A program made the translations under genes and the position numbers. Below, piece after piece: positions 47,598 through 64,000 of a stretch of 64,000 nt of DNA (position 1 is its first letter; every line of letters starts with the position of its first letter). Where the stretch lies: assembly GCF_011299555.1 (NCBI RefSeq), contig NZ_CP049857.1, forward strand, positions 1,736,001-1,800,000, given 5' to 3'. The notes under the pieces are model-generated. The model searched no databases. It had not been told where the DNA came from and saw only the letters and a program-made list of their open reading frames with translations. The DNA is from Dysgonomonas sp. HDW5A. GTDB taxonomy: Bacteria; Bacteroidota; Bacteroidia; Bacteroidales; Dysgonomonadaceae.

Positions 47598-47602
47598 TTT
47601 TG

Positions 47603-47676
47603 CTCTCCCTCTTGGACTTGAACCAAGGACCCTCTGATTAACAGTCAGATGCTCTAACCAACTGAGCTAAGGAAGA
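47603..47676 (-). tRNA. tRNA-Asn (GUU), distal copy
   Basis: 74 nt, reading on the minus strand. Acceptor stem TCTTCCT/AGGGAGA (one G:U pair), D arm with AGCTCAGTTGGTTAGAGC, anticodon stem-loop CTGACTGTTAATCAG giving GTT, and T arm CTTGG-TTCAAGT-CCAAG. CCA is not encoded. It is the same as the copy 32 bp away. Confidence 0.97.
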
Positions 47677-47708
47677 GTATAAACTCTTAGATAATACAAT
47701 AAAAAAAG

Positions 47709-47782
47709 CTCTCCCTCTTGGACTTGAACCAAGGACCCTCTGATTAACAGTCAGATGCTCTAACCAACTGAGCTAAGGAAGA
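47709..47782 (-). tRNA. tRNA-Asn (GUU), proximal copy
   Basis: 74 nt with the same sequence as the copy at 47603-47676; the two are separated by 32 bp and likely share a transcript ending at the 47.57 kb hairpin. CCA is not encoded. Confidence 0.97.
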
Positions 47783-57419: not shown

Positions 57420-57606
57420 GTGCCATCCATCTTAGTCGATGGGAATTTTTCATAATTATATTTTTTCATTTTCTTTATAAATAGTATTTGAATATATAAT
57501 TAATGTTCGTACATTTATTATATGTTCAAATGTATTTTTTTATTTGTCGGATATTTTTTGTAATCTTTTTTATTTATTAACTTTGAAGTCTAAATTCACA
57601 AAGCTA

Positions 57607-58335
57607 ATGAAACTAGAAATTAACCATAAAAGCTCAATACCACTCCATCAGCAAGCAGAAGAGCTTCTTCGAAAGATGATCGAACAAGAAGATTATAAAA
57701 ATGGAAAGTTGTTACCTAATGAAGTGACATTGTCCGAACAATTAAAAATTTCTAGAAATACATTAAGGCAAGCTATTAACAAACTCGTTTTTGAAGGTTC
57801 GCTTTCTCGTAAAAAAGGATATGGAACTAAAGTTGTGCGTAAGGGTGTTGCAAGTGGTATAAAAAATTGGCTCAGTTTTTCTCAAGAGATGAAAATGTTG
57901 GGAATAGAGGTTCGGAACTTTGAGCTGCACCTGAGTTATAAAAAGGCTACAGACGAAATTGCTAACTTTTTTAATATTGAAGCTAACGAAAGGTGCCTGA
58001 CGCTAGAGCGTGTAAGAGGAAATCAGGAGTATCCTTTTGTGTATTTTATCTCTTACTTTAGTCCTCAGATATCATTAGATAGTGATTGTAATTTTAATCG
58101 CCCATTATACGAGTTGCTCGAAAAAGACCTTAATATTATAGTGAAAACTTCAAAAGAAGAGATTTCGGCATCGCTGGCAAATGACTTTATTTCAGAGAAA
58201 TTGGACATTAAGCCGCATGATCCTATACTTATACGTAAACGATTTGTGTATGATGTAAATGATGTGCCAATTGAATACAATGTGGGTTACTATAGGGCTG
58301 ACAGTTTTACGTATACTATTGAAGCTCAAAGATAA
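57607..58335 (+). CDS. GntR-family regulator with UTRA domain
   Basis: 242 residues from ATG at 57607 (the frame is open further upstream, but that N-terminus lacks homology). Winged helix: 'IPLHQQAEELLRKMIEQEDYKNGKLLPNEVTLSEQLKISRNTLRQAINKLVFEGSLSRKKGYGTKVV'. The UTRA effector domain follows (about 90-240, 'LTLERVRGNQEYPFVYFISYFSP', 'DPILIRKRFVYDVNDVPIEYNVGYYRAD'). HutC-type regulators sense sugar phosphates or amino sugars. The likely former target is the eroded gene on the other side of the intergenic region. Confidence 0.88.
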   Translation: MKLEINHKSSIPLHQQAEELLRKMIEQEDYKNGKLLPNEVTLSEQLKISRNTLRQAINKLVFEGSLSRKKGYGTKVVRKGVASGIKNWLSFSQEMKMLGIEVRNFELHLSYKKATDEIANFFNIEANERCLTLERVRGNQEYPFVYFISYFSPQISLDSDCNFNRPLYELLEKDLNIIVKTSKEEISASLANDFISEKLDIKPHDPILIRKRFVYDVNDVPIEYNVGYYRADSFTYTIEAQR

Positions 58336-58451: not shown

Positions 58452-58496
58452 AGAAAAAACTCTAACCGATTGATGAATCAATGATTAGAGTTTTTC
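58452..58496 (-). terminator. Terminator of the ancestral tRNA-Leu locus
   Basis: Hairpin AAAACTCTAA..ATTGAT-tc-ATCAAT..TTAGAGTTTT with A- and T-rich flanks, reading downstream of the tRNA fragment on the minus strand. Confidence 0.7.
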
Positions 58497-58500
58497 TTAG

Positions 58501-58557
58501 TACTCGGAGCGGGACTTGAACCCGCACAACCTAATGGTCACAAGATTTTAAGTCTTG
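58501..58557 (-). other. 3' fragment of tRNA-Leu (UAA): integration-site scar
   Basis: 57 nt on the minus strand. It has the anticodon stem-loop CAAGA-CTTAAAA-TCTTG (anticodon TAA), variable arm, T arm GCGGG-TTCAAGT-CCCGC, and the acceptor 3' strand TCCGAGT plus discriminator A. The D arm and the 5' acceptor strand are absent: upstream sequence on this strand is unrelated. Such a half tRNA is what site-specific integration of a mobile element into a tRNA 3' end leaves at the far end of the element. The intact tRNA-Leu should lie beyond the right edge of the window, on the minus strand. Confidence 0.7.
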
Positions 58558-58807
58558 TATTTGTTATATGATTATCAGTAGATTACTGTATATCTGTGAG
58601 CAGTCTGTGAACGAACGCCTTTTACCCTATAAATTTACAAAATTAAAACTGATCGTCGGCATCATTAAATACCTTTTTTTGTTGATTTAATTGTTAAATC
58701 TTTTATTTCGTAAACATATTATGTGCAGATAATAACGAATAAAAGATATTAAGAAAGTAGTTAAAATCAAAAACATATTTATTTGCATTTGAATAAAATA
58801 TATCCTG

Positions 58808-59749
58808 TTATTCCACTATCTTCCAATATCCGCTTCGGGCTGAACCATTGCGAACAATAACACCTTCTTTCGTCAACTTTTGCAAATGATACTTAGCACC
58901 ATCAGGCGTTAAACCCAATGCACCCGCTAATTCGTTACGGGTTATTTTAGGATTATTGAGTATTTGTGCCAAAATCCTATCACGCATAGTTTGTGGTGTG
59001 TTTTGTTCAGTAGCTAACGTTTCATCAATCACGCCCAAAATAAACTCTATGAAAGGCGTACAACCATTTTCACCGCCACTTATAGCAATAGCATGATAAT
59101 ATTCTTTCCTGTACTTATAAACGATATTTTCAATCGGCAGATTCTTAAAGATAGAACGCCATTTACTTAATATCAGCGTCTGCCAAAGTCGCCCAGTACG
59201 CCCGTTGCCATCCGAAAAAGGATGAATAAATTCAAATTCGTAATGAAATACACAACTCTTTATCAATGGGTGTTCTTCGGTTTCATTCAACCAGTCGAAC
59301 AATTCTTGTATCAAATGGGGTACTCTTTCAGCAGGCGGAGCATAATGGACAATCTCTTCGCCCGAAGCAACCCCGACACCCTGCGTCCTGAAACGTCCTG
59401 CATCGTCAATTAAGCCCCCTTCCATTGCAAGGTGGGCTTTCAATAGGTCGTTAATGCTATTCGGGTTTAACTCATCAAGCATTTGATAAGCTTTAATAGC
59501 ATTGCGTACCTCCTGAACCTCATTTATCGGCGCAATAACAGGTTTTCCTTCCAATATAGCCGTGATTTGATCGGTAGTCAATGTGTTACCTTCAATGGCA
59601 AGCGAACCCTGAATTGTTTTGATCCTGTTTATCCTGTGAAGTCGTAAATCTTCATAGACATAAAAACTACCTATTGCTTCGCTTATTTTAGAAACAAGAC
59701 TAACAATTTTTGCAGTTATTTTATATGGCGGAACGTATGACATAATCAT
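58808..59749 (-). CDS. Fic-family AMPylation protein with C-terminal winged helix
   Basis: 313 residues. The inhibitory helix motif SLAIEGN (about 49-55, pattern [S/T]xxxE[G/N]) precedes the Fic domain, whose catalytic loop is HPFSDGNGRTGR (176-187) with all active residues intact. The C-terminal 75 residues form a winged helix ('NPKITRNELAGALGLTPDGAKYHLQKLTKEGVIVRNGSARSGYW'). Class II Fic proteins transfer AMP to target proteins when the inhibitory Glu is released, and the DNA-binding tail suggests autoregulation. First gene inside the island edge. Confidence 0.92.
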   Translation of the reverse strand: MIMSYVPPYKITAKIVSLVSKISEAIGSFYVYEDLRLHRINRIKTIQGSLAIEGNTLTTDQITAILEGKPVIAPINEVQEVRNAIKAYQMLDELNPNSINDLLKAHLAMEGGLIDDAGRFRTQGVGVASGEEIVHYAPPAERVPHLIQELFDWLNETEEHPLIKSCVFHYEFEFIHPFSDGNGRTGRLWQTLILSKWRSIFKNLPIENIVYKYRKEYYHAIAISGGENGCTPFIEFILGVIDETLATEQNTPQTMRDRILAQILNNPKITRNELAGALGLTPDGAKYHLQKLTKEGVIVRNGSARSGYWKIVE

Positions 59750-60358
59750 ACAAAAATAGAGATTATTTTTGATTAGGGTAGTTTATTGGGTAGATTTTTA
59801 TCCAAAGACTACCCTAAACAAACTATCTACATACAGCGAACCCTTTTCCACCATATTTATATATAGTTGATTAAAAAATAAAGAAAAACAAGGGTTAAAT
59901 TATAATCGACCGATTTTTTACACCCTTTTTGCTTCCATAACAAGCTGTTTTTCAAAATCTTCAGAGTTCAACACATACGCTTTCCACGACGACCTTACTT
60001 TTGTGCACTTTCGTGATATGGTGTTGCCTGTTGTCGGTTCGTGAGACAGAGCAGGACATTTGTAAGGGTGTTGCCACTCGGATTGCTGCTAATTCAGTAA
60101 CAGCCACGTTCTAATTATCTCCCCAGAACTTTTGACTAAGAGGGTGTCCTTTTCGTAATCTTTTGTAATTTGAATATCAGCAGCGTAGATATATTTTGGC
60201 TGATATTTTTAGTATTTTGCGGTATATAAATGTAGTAATAAAAAATGTGGTACGCAAACAATCACGCACACAGTCGATAAAGGTAAACATTTAAAGGACG
60301 CAATTCTCTCCAATTCAGCTCTGTATAAGGGATAAAAGGGTGGTATAAAGGGTGGCAG
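59750..60358. other. Gap with possible coding remnants
   Basis: About 610 bp without an intact gene. On the minus strand 59918-60088 is an open stretch of about 56 codons without a start ('KCPALSHEPTTGNTIS..' in one frame), ending in TAA. A second frame is open for a similar length. It may be the decayed end of a mobilisation or recombinase gene; neither is recognised. Confidence 0.35.
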
Positions 60359-60763
60359 TTAGTCCAGACGATTGGCAAAAAAACCGAAATATTTGTCGCC
60401 TTCCCTTTCAAAATACATGATAAAAGACGAGCATAATTTCCACCTTTTCGCATTCGGGCAATACTCAAAAAGCTTGTTGCATAATTCAAGATATGTGCCA
60501 ACCTCATCTATACTATCAAAATGCACATAGCACACATCACAGTTCCCGACTTCATCAAAATAACATACCAATGTACCCTTATCACCCCGAACCTCTAAAA
60601 CATCTTCGTGTACATTATCTTTTTGGTGGTAATAACGCATCTCACAATAACTATTATTCGGAAATAGCCCTATTATCAACTCTTTCGAGCAATTCAGAAC
60701 CGCATTGCCATAACTCACAAAGTTGATAAAATTAGCTTTTACTGTTGGACTTATATTTTGCAT
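60359..60763 (-). CDS. Uncharacterised small protein
   Basis: 134 residues, soluble, not recognised. It is rich in aromatic residues and Cys ('EMRYYHQKDNVHEDVLEVRGDKGTLVCYFDEVGNCDVCYVHFDSIDEVGTYLELCNKLFEYCP'). There is no signal or membrane segment. Codon and amino-acid use look like real coding sequence. It lies between the Fic gene and an XRE regulator on the opposite strand. Confidence 0.6.
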   Translation of the reverse strand: MQNISPTVKANFINFVSYGNAVLNCSKELIIGLFPNNSYCEMRYYHQKDNVHEDVLEVRGDKGTLVCYFDEVGNCDVCYVHFDSIDEVGTYLELCNKLFEYCPNAKRWKLCSSFIMYFEREGDKYFGFFANRLD

Positions 60764-60866
60764 CGTGTTTTTTATTTACAAAAATCCGACAATCAGGCTG
60801 TATATTCTAAACCTTTTTGTTCTAAAGCAAGAACATTATTATAGTAAAATATATCGCCGATGTTTT

Positions 60867-60882
60867 TATTTTTGTATTTTTG
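60867..60882 (+). promoter_or_regulatory. Candidate -7 boxes of the XRE/methyltransferase operon
   Basis: TATTTTTG at 60867-60874 and again at 60875-60882, 36-43 bp before the XRE start. No -33 TTG at ideal spacing. Confidence 0.35.
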
Positions 60883-60917
60883 ATAGATAAACAATTTTCG
60901 TGAAAAATTAAATAAAT

Positions 60918-61313
60918 ATGGATACAGCTTTCGAAACCAAAAAGCGCAATGACGGATACAGTGTAAAACGCCTACGCGAAATTCTTGGCAAAAAACAAGA
61001 AACTTTAGCCGAACAACTTGGAGTGTCGCAACGTACTATTTCTAAGCTCGAAAGTAAAGAGATTATTGAAGATGAAATGCTTGATAAAATAGCTGAAGCT
61101 TTAAATATTTCGACTGATACTATTAAAAATTTTAGCGAAGAAGGAGTAGTAAATATTATTGCTAACACATTTCAAGATGAAGCGGTTAGTTATGCTGTTC
61201 ATTATAAATGTACATTTAATCCGCTCGACAAAGTTGTAGAACTTTATGAACGTATGCTTCAAACAGAACGAGAAAAAGTCGCCCTACTTGAAGAAGTGCT
61301 TAAAAAGAAATAA
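60918..61313 (+). CDS. XRE-family regulator of the methyltransferase locus
   Basis: 131 residues. HTH in about 14-70: 'SVKRLREILGKKQETLAEQLGVSQRTISKLESKEIIEDEMLDKIAEALNIS'. A C-terminal coiled coil ('VELYERMLQTEREKVALLEEVLKKK') suits dimerisation. It precedes the DNA methyltransferase gene by 69 bp on the same strand. Controller proteins of this type time expression in restriction-modification loci. Confidence 0.88.
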   Translation: MDTAFETKKRNDGYSVKRLREILGKKQETLAEQLGVSQRTISKLESKEIIEDEMLDKIAEALNISTDTIKNFSEEGVVNIIANTFQDEAVSYAVHYKCTFNPLDKVVELYERMLQTEREKVALLEEVLKKK

Positions 61314-61382
61314 ACTAAATACAACAATAGCAATATAAAAAGCTCTCTCCTAAAAAGATAGGGCTTATTTTATCTTAACAAT

Positions 61383-63314
61383 ATGGACGGTAAAAGCTTA
61401 GATATAGTACAAGACAATATAGAAAAACTAAAACAACTGTTCCCTAACATCTTTTCGGAGGGTAAGATTGACTTTGCCCGATTGAAACAGGAATTAGGCG
61501 AAGACGTATTGACAAAAGGCGAACACTACGAATTATCGTGGGCAGGAAAAAGTGAAGCACGCCTCGAAATACAAAAGCGAACCACCGCCACACTTATTCC
61601 CGACAAGGAAGGAAGCGTTGATTTCGACACGGCACAAAATATATTTATCGAAGGCGAAAACCTCGAAACCCTGCGTGTATTGCAGCAATCGTATTTCGGA
61701 CGTGTGAAGATGATATACATCGACCCGCCTTACAACACGGGTAACGATAGTTTTGTATATCCTGACGACTATAGCGAACGTCGCGACGATTATCAGAAGC
61801 GTACCAATATAATTGACGAAGAAGGCTACCTGAACAAGCAAGACCTTTGGCGCAAAAACACCAAAGAAAACGGACAATATCATTCAGCTTGGCTTTCGAT
61901 GATGTATCCTCGCCTTTACATTGCCCGCAATCTATTGCGCGAAGATGGGGTTATTTTTATCTCTATTGGTGAAGATGAAATTTCAAATATAAAGTTACTT
62001 TGTGATGAAATATTTGGTGAAGAAAATTGTATTACAATATTTTCTCGTCTTATGAAGTCTGGAGGTGCAAAAGGACGATTTATAACTCCGAATATAGATT
62101 ATATTCTTGCTTATACTAAGAATATCTTATTGACAAATGATTTTAGAAGTATCTTAAAAGAAGACCAAATTGAACGTTACTATAATAAAACAGAAATATC
62201 AGGGGCAAGGGAAGGTCAGGTTTATGGAGAAGAGAGGCTCTATAAAGCAAGTCTTGACCCAAGAGCTAACCAGAGATATTGGATAAAATGCCCTGATGGC
62301 ACATTTGTAATTCCTCCAGGAGTAAGTTTCCCTGAAAGATTAGAAGAAGGAGAAAAAATCGCTCCCACATCAGAGGATGGGGTTTGGAAGTGGATTTATG
62401 ACCGTTATAAATCAGAATATAATTTAAATAATATTGTATTTAAAGAAACTTCTACATCGGCTCTTATTGATTCAACAGGTAAACAATCAAAATGGAATAT
62501 TTATAATAAATTATGGTTAGAAGAACAAAAAGAAAAAGGAGTAGTTCCGTCTAATTTTATAAGTGAATTTGAGAATCGTCAAAGTGCGAAAGAACTGAAA
62601 GACCTTGAAATACCTTTTGATTTTGCAAAGCCAAAAGATTTAATAAAATATTTACTCCAAATCTCTAAAACAGATGAAGATGCTTTAATCCTTGACTTCT
62701 TTGCAGGTAGTGGTACAACAGCACAAGCCGTAATGGAACTGAACGAAGAAGACGGAGGTAATCGTCGCTTTATCTGTGTACAAATGCCCGAATTGTTGGA
62801 AGAAAAAGACGAGGCTTACAAAGCAGGCTACCGCACTATTGCCGATATTTGCAAAGAACGTATCCATCGCAGTATTGCCAAAATAGAAAAAGAGCGCGAG
62901 GGCAAATTGGAGTTCGAAACCAAACAAAAACTCGCCTTTGCCGCTTACAAGCTTAAACCAAGCAATTTCAAAATATGGCAATCCGATGCCGACAAAATGG
63001 ATTTGGCACAACAGCTTATCGACTTTACCCAGTCGGAACGTGCCGAAAGCCTACCGCAAAATATGCTGATAGAACTTTTGCTCAAAAACGAAAAAGAAGC
63101 CCTTACCATCAATTACTCTTTTGAGGATGGCTTCTACAAAACTCAGAAAACATGGTTCTGTTTCGAAGCATACGTCAAGCAACAAAAAGAGCTGCTCACA
63201 GCAGGCAAGCCACAAGAAGTGATATACCTCAATTCGTGCTTCACGTCGGACGAAGATTTGACTAACCTCAAACTCGAATTGCAGGAAAACAATATTAAAC
63301 TGACATTGGTATGA
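61383..63314 (+). CDS. mod: Type III-like DNA adenine methyltransferase (Mod)
   Basis: 643 residues, beta-class order: motif IV '[11 protein letters not shown]' (about 111-121) comes before the target-recognition region, and motif I '[14 protein letters not shown]' (about 438-451) follows it. N6-adenine methylation is expected. The C-terminal part contains '[21 protein letters not shown]', typical of Mod subunits of type III restriction-modification systems. The centre (about 200-435) differs in base composition from both flanks. The stop overlaps the start of the AAA ATPase gene by 4 bp. The res helicase-nuclease is expected downstream, outside the window. Confidence 0.9.
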
Positions 63315-64000
63315 TAAACAATATACAGATAGAAAACTATAAGTCTATCCGTGAGCTTAATCTCGATATGAAGCCAATCAACGTATTGATAGGCTCTAAC
63401 GGTGCGGGTAAAAGTAATTTTATCAGCTTCTTCAAGTTTTTGAAAGCAATCTACGACCGCAATCTGCAAATCCATGTTGCAGAAGAAGGTAGTAGCGAAG
63501 ATATATTGCATTTTGGTTCTAAAGTATCGGAATATGTGTGGGGATGGATAGAGTTTGATAGTGTTACTCCGACAACAAATGCTTATTCTTTTCGTTTAAA
63601 ACCAGATTCAGATAGTGATTTTTATTTTGACCGTGAAGCAATTGCATTTCATGACAAAGTAAGATATTCTGAACCTTATATTGATACAATCGGAGTAGGA
63701 GGGCATAACGAAAGTTTTCTTCCTAAAAGTACTAATTCTATTGCAGGACATGTAAGAAAATATATGAAGTCTTTTCGTGTATTTCATTTCCATGATACCA
63801 GTAAGACATCAAAATTGCGTAAACCAGCACAATTAAACGATAACGATTTCCTTCGCGAAGATGGTTCTAACCTACCCGCTTTTCTCTATTGGATGCAGGA
63901 AAAGCACCCCAAAGATTTCAAGAAAATAGAAATGGTGGTGCGTTCGGTTGCTCCCTACTTTGATAGCTTCAACCTTGCACCCGATAAACTAAACGAAGAC
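63311..64000 (+). CDS. AAA-family ATPase (AAA_21/OLD-like), cut by window edge
   Basis: The gene starts at ATG 63311, overlapping the methyltransferase stop (ATGA). 230 codons are visible. Residues 1-20 form the '[27 protein letters not shown]' start typical of RecF/OLD-like ATPases, with Walker A GSNGAGKS (28-35). Further on is '[20 protein letters not shown]'. The signature and Walker B lie beyond the window. ATPases of this class often pair with a nuclease or restriction subunit in defence loci. Coupled translation with mod supports a joint complex, which is inference. Confidence 0.88.

Follow-up and report, generated by a model that had tools for sequence, protein, structure and literature searches.

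A half tRNA-Leu(UAA) gene in Dysgonomonas sp. HDW5A is the far attachment scar of a 12,442-bp element, possibly a minimal phage satellite with defence cargo

PICI and SaPI, as portrayed in an excerpt of one source, are characterized by a specific attachment site, the lack of structural genes, a size near 15 kb, an XRE-type regulator and accessory genes; a terminase small subunit is sometimes present, the attachment sites are not those of prophages, and further marks are an own primase/rep with an origin, an xis gene with divergent regulators, and phage-dependent induction and packaging (PMC6092414). The PICMI, minimalist satellites of Vibrionaceae, are described in part of another source as needing int, AlpA and a primase, lying beside fis and being without terS, with very few genes of their own and with defence cargo (PMC10803314). 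LoVEphage, the type member of its phage family, is reported, in a section of a third source, from about 8% of gut viromes (PMC12629997).

Here, a 12,442-bp element of Dysgonomonas sp. HDW5A is described, the left part of which lies in the window, i.e., the whole stretch of 64,000 nucleotides that was analysed (positions 1,736,001 to 1,800,000 of contig NZ_CP049857.1). It is read as a minimal phage satellite with defence cargo, with a probability of roughly 55%. The element resembles PICI in its specific attachment site, its size (near 15 kb), the absence of recognised structural genes among ten scanned proteins, the XRE-type regulator, the terminase-small-like gene and the accessory genes, but differs from them in having no recognised xis, primase, rep or divergent regulators among these proteins, in its Bacteroidota host and in the position of the terminase-like gene beside the integrase. 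The element would work like a PICI; filing it as one was rejected because neither a primase/rep nor an xis of its own was recognised and because its transfer is a prediction. With PICMI it shares the very few own genes and the defence cargo (for PICMI, as the excerpted source has it; PMC10803314), but it sits at a tRNA site, has a terminase-small-like gene and no recognised AlpA or primase, and it was not filed there either because the set of int, AlpA, primase and fis was not found. tRNA-anchored defence islands likewise have an integrase located at the 3' end of a tRNA, a direct repeat and restriction-modification cargo, to which the element adds the terminase-like gene and a cis block common to phages. 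Among the matches listed from the open-licence PMC literature, no terminase-bearing satellite was found for Dysgonomonas or Bacteroidota, which is not proof of absence.

The half tRNA at 58500..58557 (minus strand) corresponds to positions 27-84 of tRNA-Leu(UAA); it lacks the first base of the anticodon stem on the 5' side, starts with the second and stops at the 3' end. The original prediction held in every point that could be checked; the length it gave, 57 nt, has to be corrected to 58 nt. The 5' half is indeed missing: no complete tRNA was called by ARAGORN at 58.5 kb, and the remainder of the tRNA-Leu gene is absent there. To the right of the window, an intact minus-strand tRNA-Leu(UAA) gene had been expected, and it was found at genome positions 1806942-1807025 (minus strand; 70942-71025 when the window numbering is continued) with tRNA-Gly(GCC) as its neighbour on the same strand. 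It contains the same 58 bp. The two copies (window 58500-58557 and genome 1806942-1806999) are 100% identical (E 1.7e-23 for the second copy), are spaced by 12,442 bp, and represent the only two occurrences in the single-contig genome (4,298,355 bp, 99.9% complete). A tyrosine integrase of 413 aa lies 153 bp from the intact gene (genome 1805547-1806788), just where one had been foreseen. A signature of the tRNA 3' end, defined as 29 nt of the T-arm and acceptor with at most two mismatches, is present in 79 of 101 family genomes and is duplicated only in the window's genome. That the half tRNA is real, and not a product of chance, is confirmed.

It is virtually certain that a 12,442-bp element is inserted in the tRNA-Leu(UAA) gene and that the half tRNA is its far attachment scar. 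Followed in minus-strand direction, tRNA-Gly and the intact tRNA-Leu come first, then the integrase and the rest of the element, and after these the displaced part of the tRNA with the old terminator and the chromosome. The features are listed below in window numbering, which is continued beyond position 64000 for those outside the window.

58455..58492, minus strand: displaced native tRNA-Leu(UAA) terminator on the chromosomal side of the junction, matched behind the tRNA in 4 of 29 loci
58500..58557, minus strand: displaced 3' part of tRNA-Leu(UAA), the 58-bp direct repeat at the far end of the element, recognised by identity to the intact gene
58500..64000, no strand: left part of the element, which is bounded by the 58-bp copies and continues to genome position 1806941 (70941 in window numbering)
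58808..59749, minus strand: Fic, 313 aa (Pfam Fic 2.3e-21, PADLOC SoFic 1.8e-45)
59940..60150, no strand: conserved non-coding block of about 205 bp with a structured core at about 59960-60083, common to a second element and three prophages
60359..60763, minus strand: 134-aa ORF, no family match above the cut-off
60918..61313, plus strand: XRE/Cro-type regulator, 131 aa (Pfam HTH_3 2e-13)
61383..63314, plus strand: type III DNA methyltransferase, mod (PADLOC MTase_III 3.9e-165, Pfam N6_N4_Mtase 1.3e-29)
63311..64402, plus strand, crossing the window end at 64000: HEC-01A AAA ATPase, 363 aa (PADLOC HEC-01A 2.5e-148)
64399-65091, plus strand, outside the window: HEC-01B, DUF4276 (PADLOC 6.2e-57)
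65088-67871, plus strand, outside the window: type III res (PADLOC REase_III 1.5e-270)
67874-68527, plus strand, outside the window: PDC-S57, T5orf172/GIY-YIG protein
69049-69513, minus strand, outside the window: small-terminase-like protein, 154 aa
69547-70788, minus strand, outside the window: tyrosine integrase, 413 aa (Pfam Phage_int_SAM_5 2.8e-6, PHROG integrase 1.2e-9)
70942-71025, minus strand, outside the window: intact tRNA-Leu(UAA)

Comparison with relatives that lack the island, which had been proposed as a check, revealed the empty site in 4 of 29 tRNA-Leu(UAA) loci, one in the same genus as the window (G002) and three in another genus (G014, G029 and G031). In these four, the sequence directly behind the intact tRNA agrees with the displaced terminator at 33-34 of 38 bases, and the terminator stem differs from theirs by paired (compensatory) changes. 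Behind the intact tRNA-Leu(UAA) of the window's genome there is a different hairpin, and the related element of G014 has this hairpin after its tRNA as well. Joining the two flanks computationally restores a normal tRNA-Leu. Recombination by the tyrosine integrase at the anticodon stem of tRNA-Leu(UAA) would have inserted the element. As the repeats and the empty sites show, the element's own copy of the 3' part, together with its own terminator hairpin, completes the working tRNA next to the integrase, while the original 3' part and its terminator were displaced to the opposite end. To the left of the junction lies a GntR gene (57544-58335) with homologues in three other genomes of the genus. 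The left flank was considered as conserved synteny and rejected, as the GntR homologue is always on another contig than tRNA-Leu(UAA) in these three genomes; conserved synteny across this point, which would have spoken against an insertion, was thus not found, and the chromosome on the left side appears to be rearranged too. Two tandem tRNA-Asn(GTT) genes are also present in the window, at 47602-47782 on the minus strand.

Everything between the two copies is accessory, as had been supposed for the region to the right of the half tRNA. From left to right, the element holds Fic, the non-coding block, the 134-aa ORF, the XRE gene, mod, HEC-01A, HEC-01B, res, the T5orf172/GIY-YIG gene, the 154-aa protein gene and the integrase. 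In ten of its proteins (short ORFs were left out of the scan), no structural, lytic, large-terminase, replication or relaxase gene product and no xis, primase, rep or AlpA was recognised, and the regulators amount to the one XRE gene, which is 31-34% identical to XRE ORFs of two related prophages. Both mod and res of a type III restriction-modification system are present, and HEC-01, i.e., the ATPase HEC-01A followed by the DUF4276 protein HEC-01B, is embedded between them (61383-67871), the four genes being joined by 4-bp overlaps. HEC-01A and HEC-01B are adjacent in all 24 loci found in 295 genomes of the order, but have mod before and res behind in only two of these, that of the window and that of G281, so HEC-01 can be regarded as a pair that travels and has moved into type III operons in these two cases at least. 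Judging from family membership, protection of the host from other phages would be the task of Fic and of the restriction-modification/HEC-01 cassette.

Relatives of the integrase (E 1e-25 or better) were detected in 12 of 101 family genomes. Both ends could be located in three sister places, where each displaced tRNA part begins in the anticodon stem and the repeats run from tRNA positions 24-29 to the 3' end.

G014 (Dysgonomonas sp. UBA5412), tRNA-Gly(UCC): sister element of 3,792 bp (3.8 kb)
G001 (Dysgonomonas alginatilytica, the window's genus), tRNA-Leu(UAG): sister element, a prophage of about 44.7 kb
G001, tRNA-Asp: sister element, a prophage of about 71.5 kb

In this small sample, the two small elements use tRNA-Leu(UAA) and tRNA-Gly(UCC), and the two bounded prophages use tRNA-Asp and tRNA-Leu(UAG). 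For the integrase relative of G017 (Dysgonomonas sp. 25), no second tRNA copy was found in the 80 kb joined. The box in which tyrosine recombinases usually carry the first catalytic Arg reads G-M/I-N-T-V/I-D-L, without Arg, in the five closest integrases aligned, and R333, H357 and Y367 are kept in all six aligned integrases. IntDOT of Bacteroides is likewise without that Arg. Searches of genome contigs and viral contigs with the integrase gave no confirmed match. The genes of the 3.8-kb element are limited to the integrase, the 154-aa protein (83% identical) and Fic (91% identical). Compared with it, the window's element has about 8.7 kb extra between the terminase-like gene and the block, consisting of the 134-aa ORF, the XRE gene and the whole restriction cassette, which was therefore either gained in one element or lost in the other. 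Pairwise dN/dS against the 3.8-kb element was 0.049 for Fic (dS 1.08) and 0.052 for the 154-aa protein (dS 2.40), values that are rough because synonymous sites are near saturation; dS of the integrase was saturated. By this measure, the 154-aa protein appears to be kept under purifying selection.

Relatives of the 154-aa protein occur in 9 of 101 family genomes, while in the order sample, which has few genomes of the window's family, it was found only in the window's genome (1 of 393). Two of 11 family members matched PHROG 51, terminase small subunit (5.5e-8 and 0.018), and the window's own protein gave no significant family match. The AlphaFold2 model, made with 11 sequences (mean pLDDT 77), shows an N-terminal helical domain and long helices. 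Among the best 50 of 210 viral fold matches of this model, 20 were named terminase small subunit, the top match having an E of 4.5e-3 and a TM of about 0.3-0.4. In the PDB fold search the NV1 small terminase ranked 9th (E 3.9), and PDB sequence searches gave one weak chance match and otherwise none. A Y-x-P-L-C-x-x-C motif near the C-terminus is present in 11 of 11 aligned rows, two LoVEphage-type proteins included. Based on these resemblances at family and fold level, the 154-aa protein may be a small terminase. Its two halves differ in conservation. Comparison with the phage protein of G001:C4 gives an identity of 37% (23/63) for residues 8-70 and of 83% (54/65) for residues 82-146, a split that none of 5000 column shuffles reproduced; against the G017 protein, the corresponding values are 37% for the N-terminus and 80% for the C-terminus. 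Between the proteins of the two small elements, the N-terminus is 86% and the C-terminus 91% identical. Such a split is as expected for a protein whose C-terminus binds a partner common to element and phage and whose N-terminus recognises a different DNA in each. The simple rule that the C-terminus tracks the large terminase is opposed by G029, where the C-terminus is only 28-31% identical and the large terminase 80%, and by G001:C20, where the copy is cut short after 132 residues. Members of the family were also observed beside an integrase, an HTH_17 gene and an AAA gene in G003 (L084 8843-14257) and in G031, Dysgonomonas sp. Marseille-P4361 (L078 9820-15926); the ends of these two elements were looked for and not found. 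In the G003 element, whose member has a PHROG 51 match, a type I restriction methylase and a specificity gene are nearby.

The tRNA-Asp element of G001 is a prophage, in which PHROGs recognise a large terminase and the portal, major head and tape-measure proteins. Relatives of its large terminase were found in the second G001 prophage (85%), G017 (89%), G029 (80%) and, weakly, G081 (27%), and none in the window's genome or seven other genomes searched; a prophage of LoVEphage-like type was not found in the window's genome. The large terminase and a 154-aa relative occur together in all four prophages. An arrangement with the two genes adjoining was rejected, as they are about 8-20 kb apart, and the 154-aa homologues are often beside a RepL-like gene. 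The PHROG scan of the G001:C4 prophage covered 18 of 91 counted ORFs, so that a second small terminase is possible there. In a phage collection of 50,697 records, the 154-aa protein matched six (E 0.01 or better). The closest large terminase (53.6%) occurs in seven records, namely all of these six and an 8.3-kb fragment. LoVEphage and Bacteroides phage BI-TP1 share with the Dysgonomonas sequences a homologue of the 154-aa protein, about 40% identical over the C-terminal 51 residues, and a large terminase 53.6% identical to that of the Dysgonomonas prophage, but they are complete 71-kb phages, and a search of stretches of BI-TP1 did not reveal the block. BI-TP1 has 102 annotated features, and a terminase small subunit is not among them. 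An unannotated 188-aa protein of BI-TP1 and LoVEphage (L164 11617-12183, L165 8617-9183) carries the C-terminal signature of the 154-aa family and, by this signature, is a candidate small terminase of the LoVEphage group; a PHROG terminase match was not found for it.

The block of about 205 bp upstream of Fic was detected in five places in 101 family genomes (E 0.001 or better), namely both small elements and the prophages G001:C4 (81%), G017 (78%) and G001:C20 (71%), and not in G029. In the three prophages it lies between a tape-measure-type gene and a gene of 158-173 aa; its neighbours in the 3.8-kb element are the terminase-like gene on one side and Fic on the other. Two-base insertions disrupt reading frames in it. 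The consensus fold, which was derived from and scored on the same five related sequences, has 39 pairs, 8 of them with two-sided changes; shuffled alignments give 2.5 +/- 1.3 and slid ones 0-2. With 7 vs. 2.6 in shuffles, the result for the reverse strand is similar, so the fold does not fix the strand of the block. Further pair types showed no excess, being reached by 127 and 304 of 500 shuffles. Rfam gave no match in the core and three weak matches to animal RNA families outside it, which were below the cut-offs and taken as chance. A covariance model recovered the block only in the five known places among 40 sources and, in a class sample with few genomes of the window's family and stricter filters, only in the window's genome (1 of 395). 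The block was matched neither in a pattern scan of viral contigs nor in a distant search of the phage collection. Downstream of the 154-aa gene, the window's element and G001:C4 share a second stretch (68 bp, 81%). The block may serve as a signal for packaging or replication, or as an RNA acting with it.

The reading of the element as a satellite is favoured by several lines of evidence: no structural or large-terminase gene in ten scanned proteins, a block common to phages, relatives of the 154-aa protein in prophages with a large terminase and their co-occurrence in phage records, PHROG and viral-fold matches of the family to small terminase, a dN/dS of 0.05, and the split in identity between the N- and C-terminus of the 154-aa protein when set against that of G001:C4. 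It is disfavoured by the missing significant family match of the window's own protein and the weak fold matches, by the distance of 8-20 kb between the prophage gene and the large terminase and its frequent place by a RepL-like gene, by the G029 and G001:C20 exceptions, by the unrecognised xis, primase and rep, and by the lack of such a prophage in the window's genome; it is weakened by the further pair types of the block fold that do not exceed shuffles. As a satellite, the element would reside in the host chromosome by means of its integrase and attachment site. The small-terminase-like protein would combine a C-terminal part as in related phages with a differing N-terminal, DNA-recognising part and, together with the shared block, would admit the element's DNA to the particles of a LoVEphage-like phage, the presumed helper. 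As no xis, primase or rep was recognised, the element would depend on the helper or the host for its excision and replication. A more far-reaching proposal, which is offered tentatively, is that of an undescribed Bacteroidota family of minimal satellites of LoVEphage-like phages, in which a mosaic small terminase (helper-type C-terminus, own N-terminus) and a structured RNA or DNA site of about 120-200 nt common to the helper (possibly a packaging RNA or packaging site) might redirect packaging, with exchangeable defence cassettes between the terminase-like gene and Fic.

Three other explanations were considered. An immobile prophage remnant, in other words a tRNA-integrated defence island in which most phage genes were lost, the integrase and the terminase-like gene were left by chance and the defence genes were kept by selection on the host, is rather unlikely: the integrase, terminase-like protein, XRE gene and block all have counterparts in prophages, genes for replication or excision were not recognised and no helper is in the genome, but integrase, terminase-like gene, block and Fic recur together in a second element, at a different tRNA in another Dysgonomonas, which, with a rough dN/dS of about 0.05 for two of the genes, speaks for a unit that is maintained and moves, and all listed genes are open. 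Less probable still is a mobilisable element that travels by conjugation via a resident conjugative element and uses the terminase-like protein as a regulator or replication accessory. Integrases of the element's kind are common in Bacteroidota mobile elements, the prophage homologues of the 154-aa protein adjoin a RepL-like gene, and in several other family genomes a member of the 154-aa family is carried by elements that have an integrase, an HTH_17 gene and an AAA gene; against this, no relaxase was recognised among the ten scanned proteins, and a link to phages is indicated by the shared block and by the co-occurrence with a single group of large terminases. A chance match, a tRNA pseudogene without an element, or an assembly error, for which no supporting point was found, is next to impossible given the exact 58-bp repeat stopping at the tRNA 3' end, the integrase at the predicted place, the empty sites in relatives and three sister elements of the same anatomy.

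Beyond what had been predicted, the terminase-like protein, the shared block and the related prophages came to light. With them, a half tRNA becomes a bounded mobile element, and a restriction-modification island is tied to the LoVEphage family. If the satellite reading is true, a candidate small terminase would be named for LoVEphage-like phages, the shared block would be a candidate packaging signal, and elements of this kind would provide a route for the spread of defence systems in Bacteroidota.
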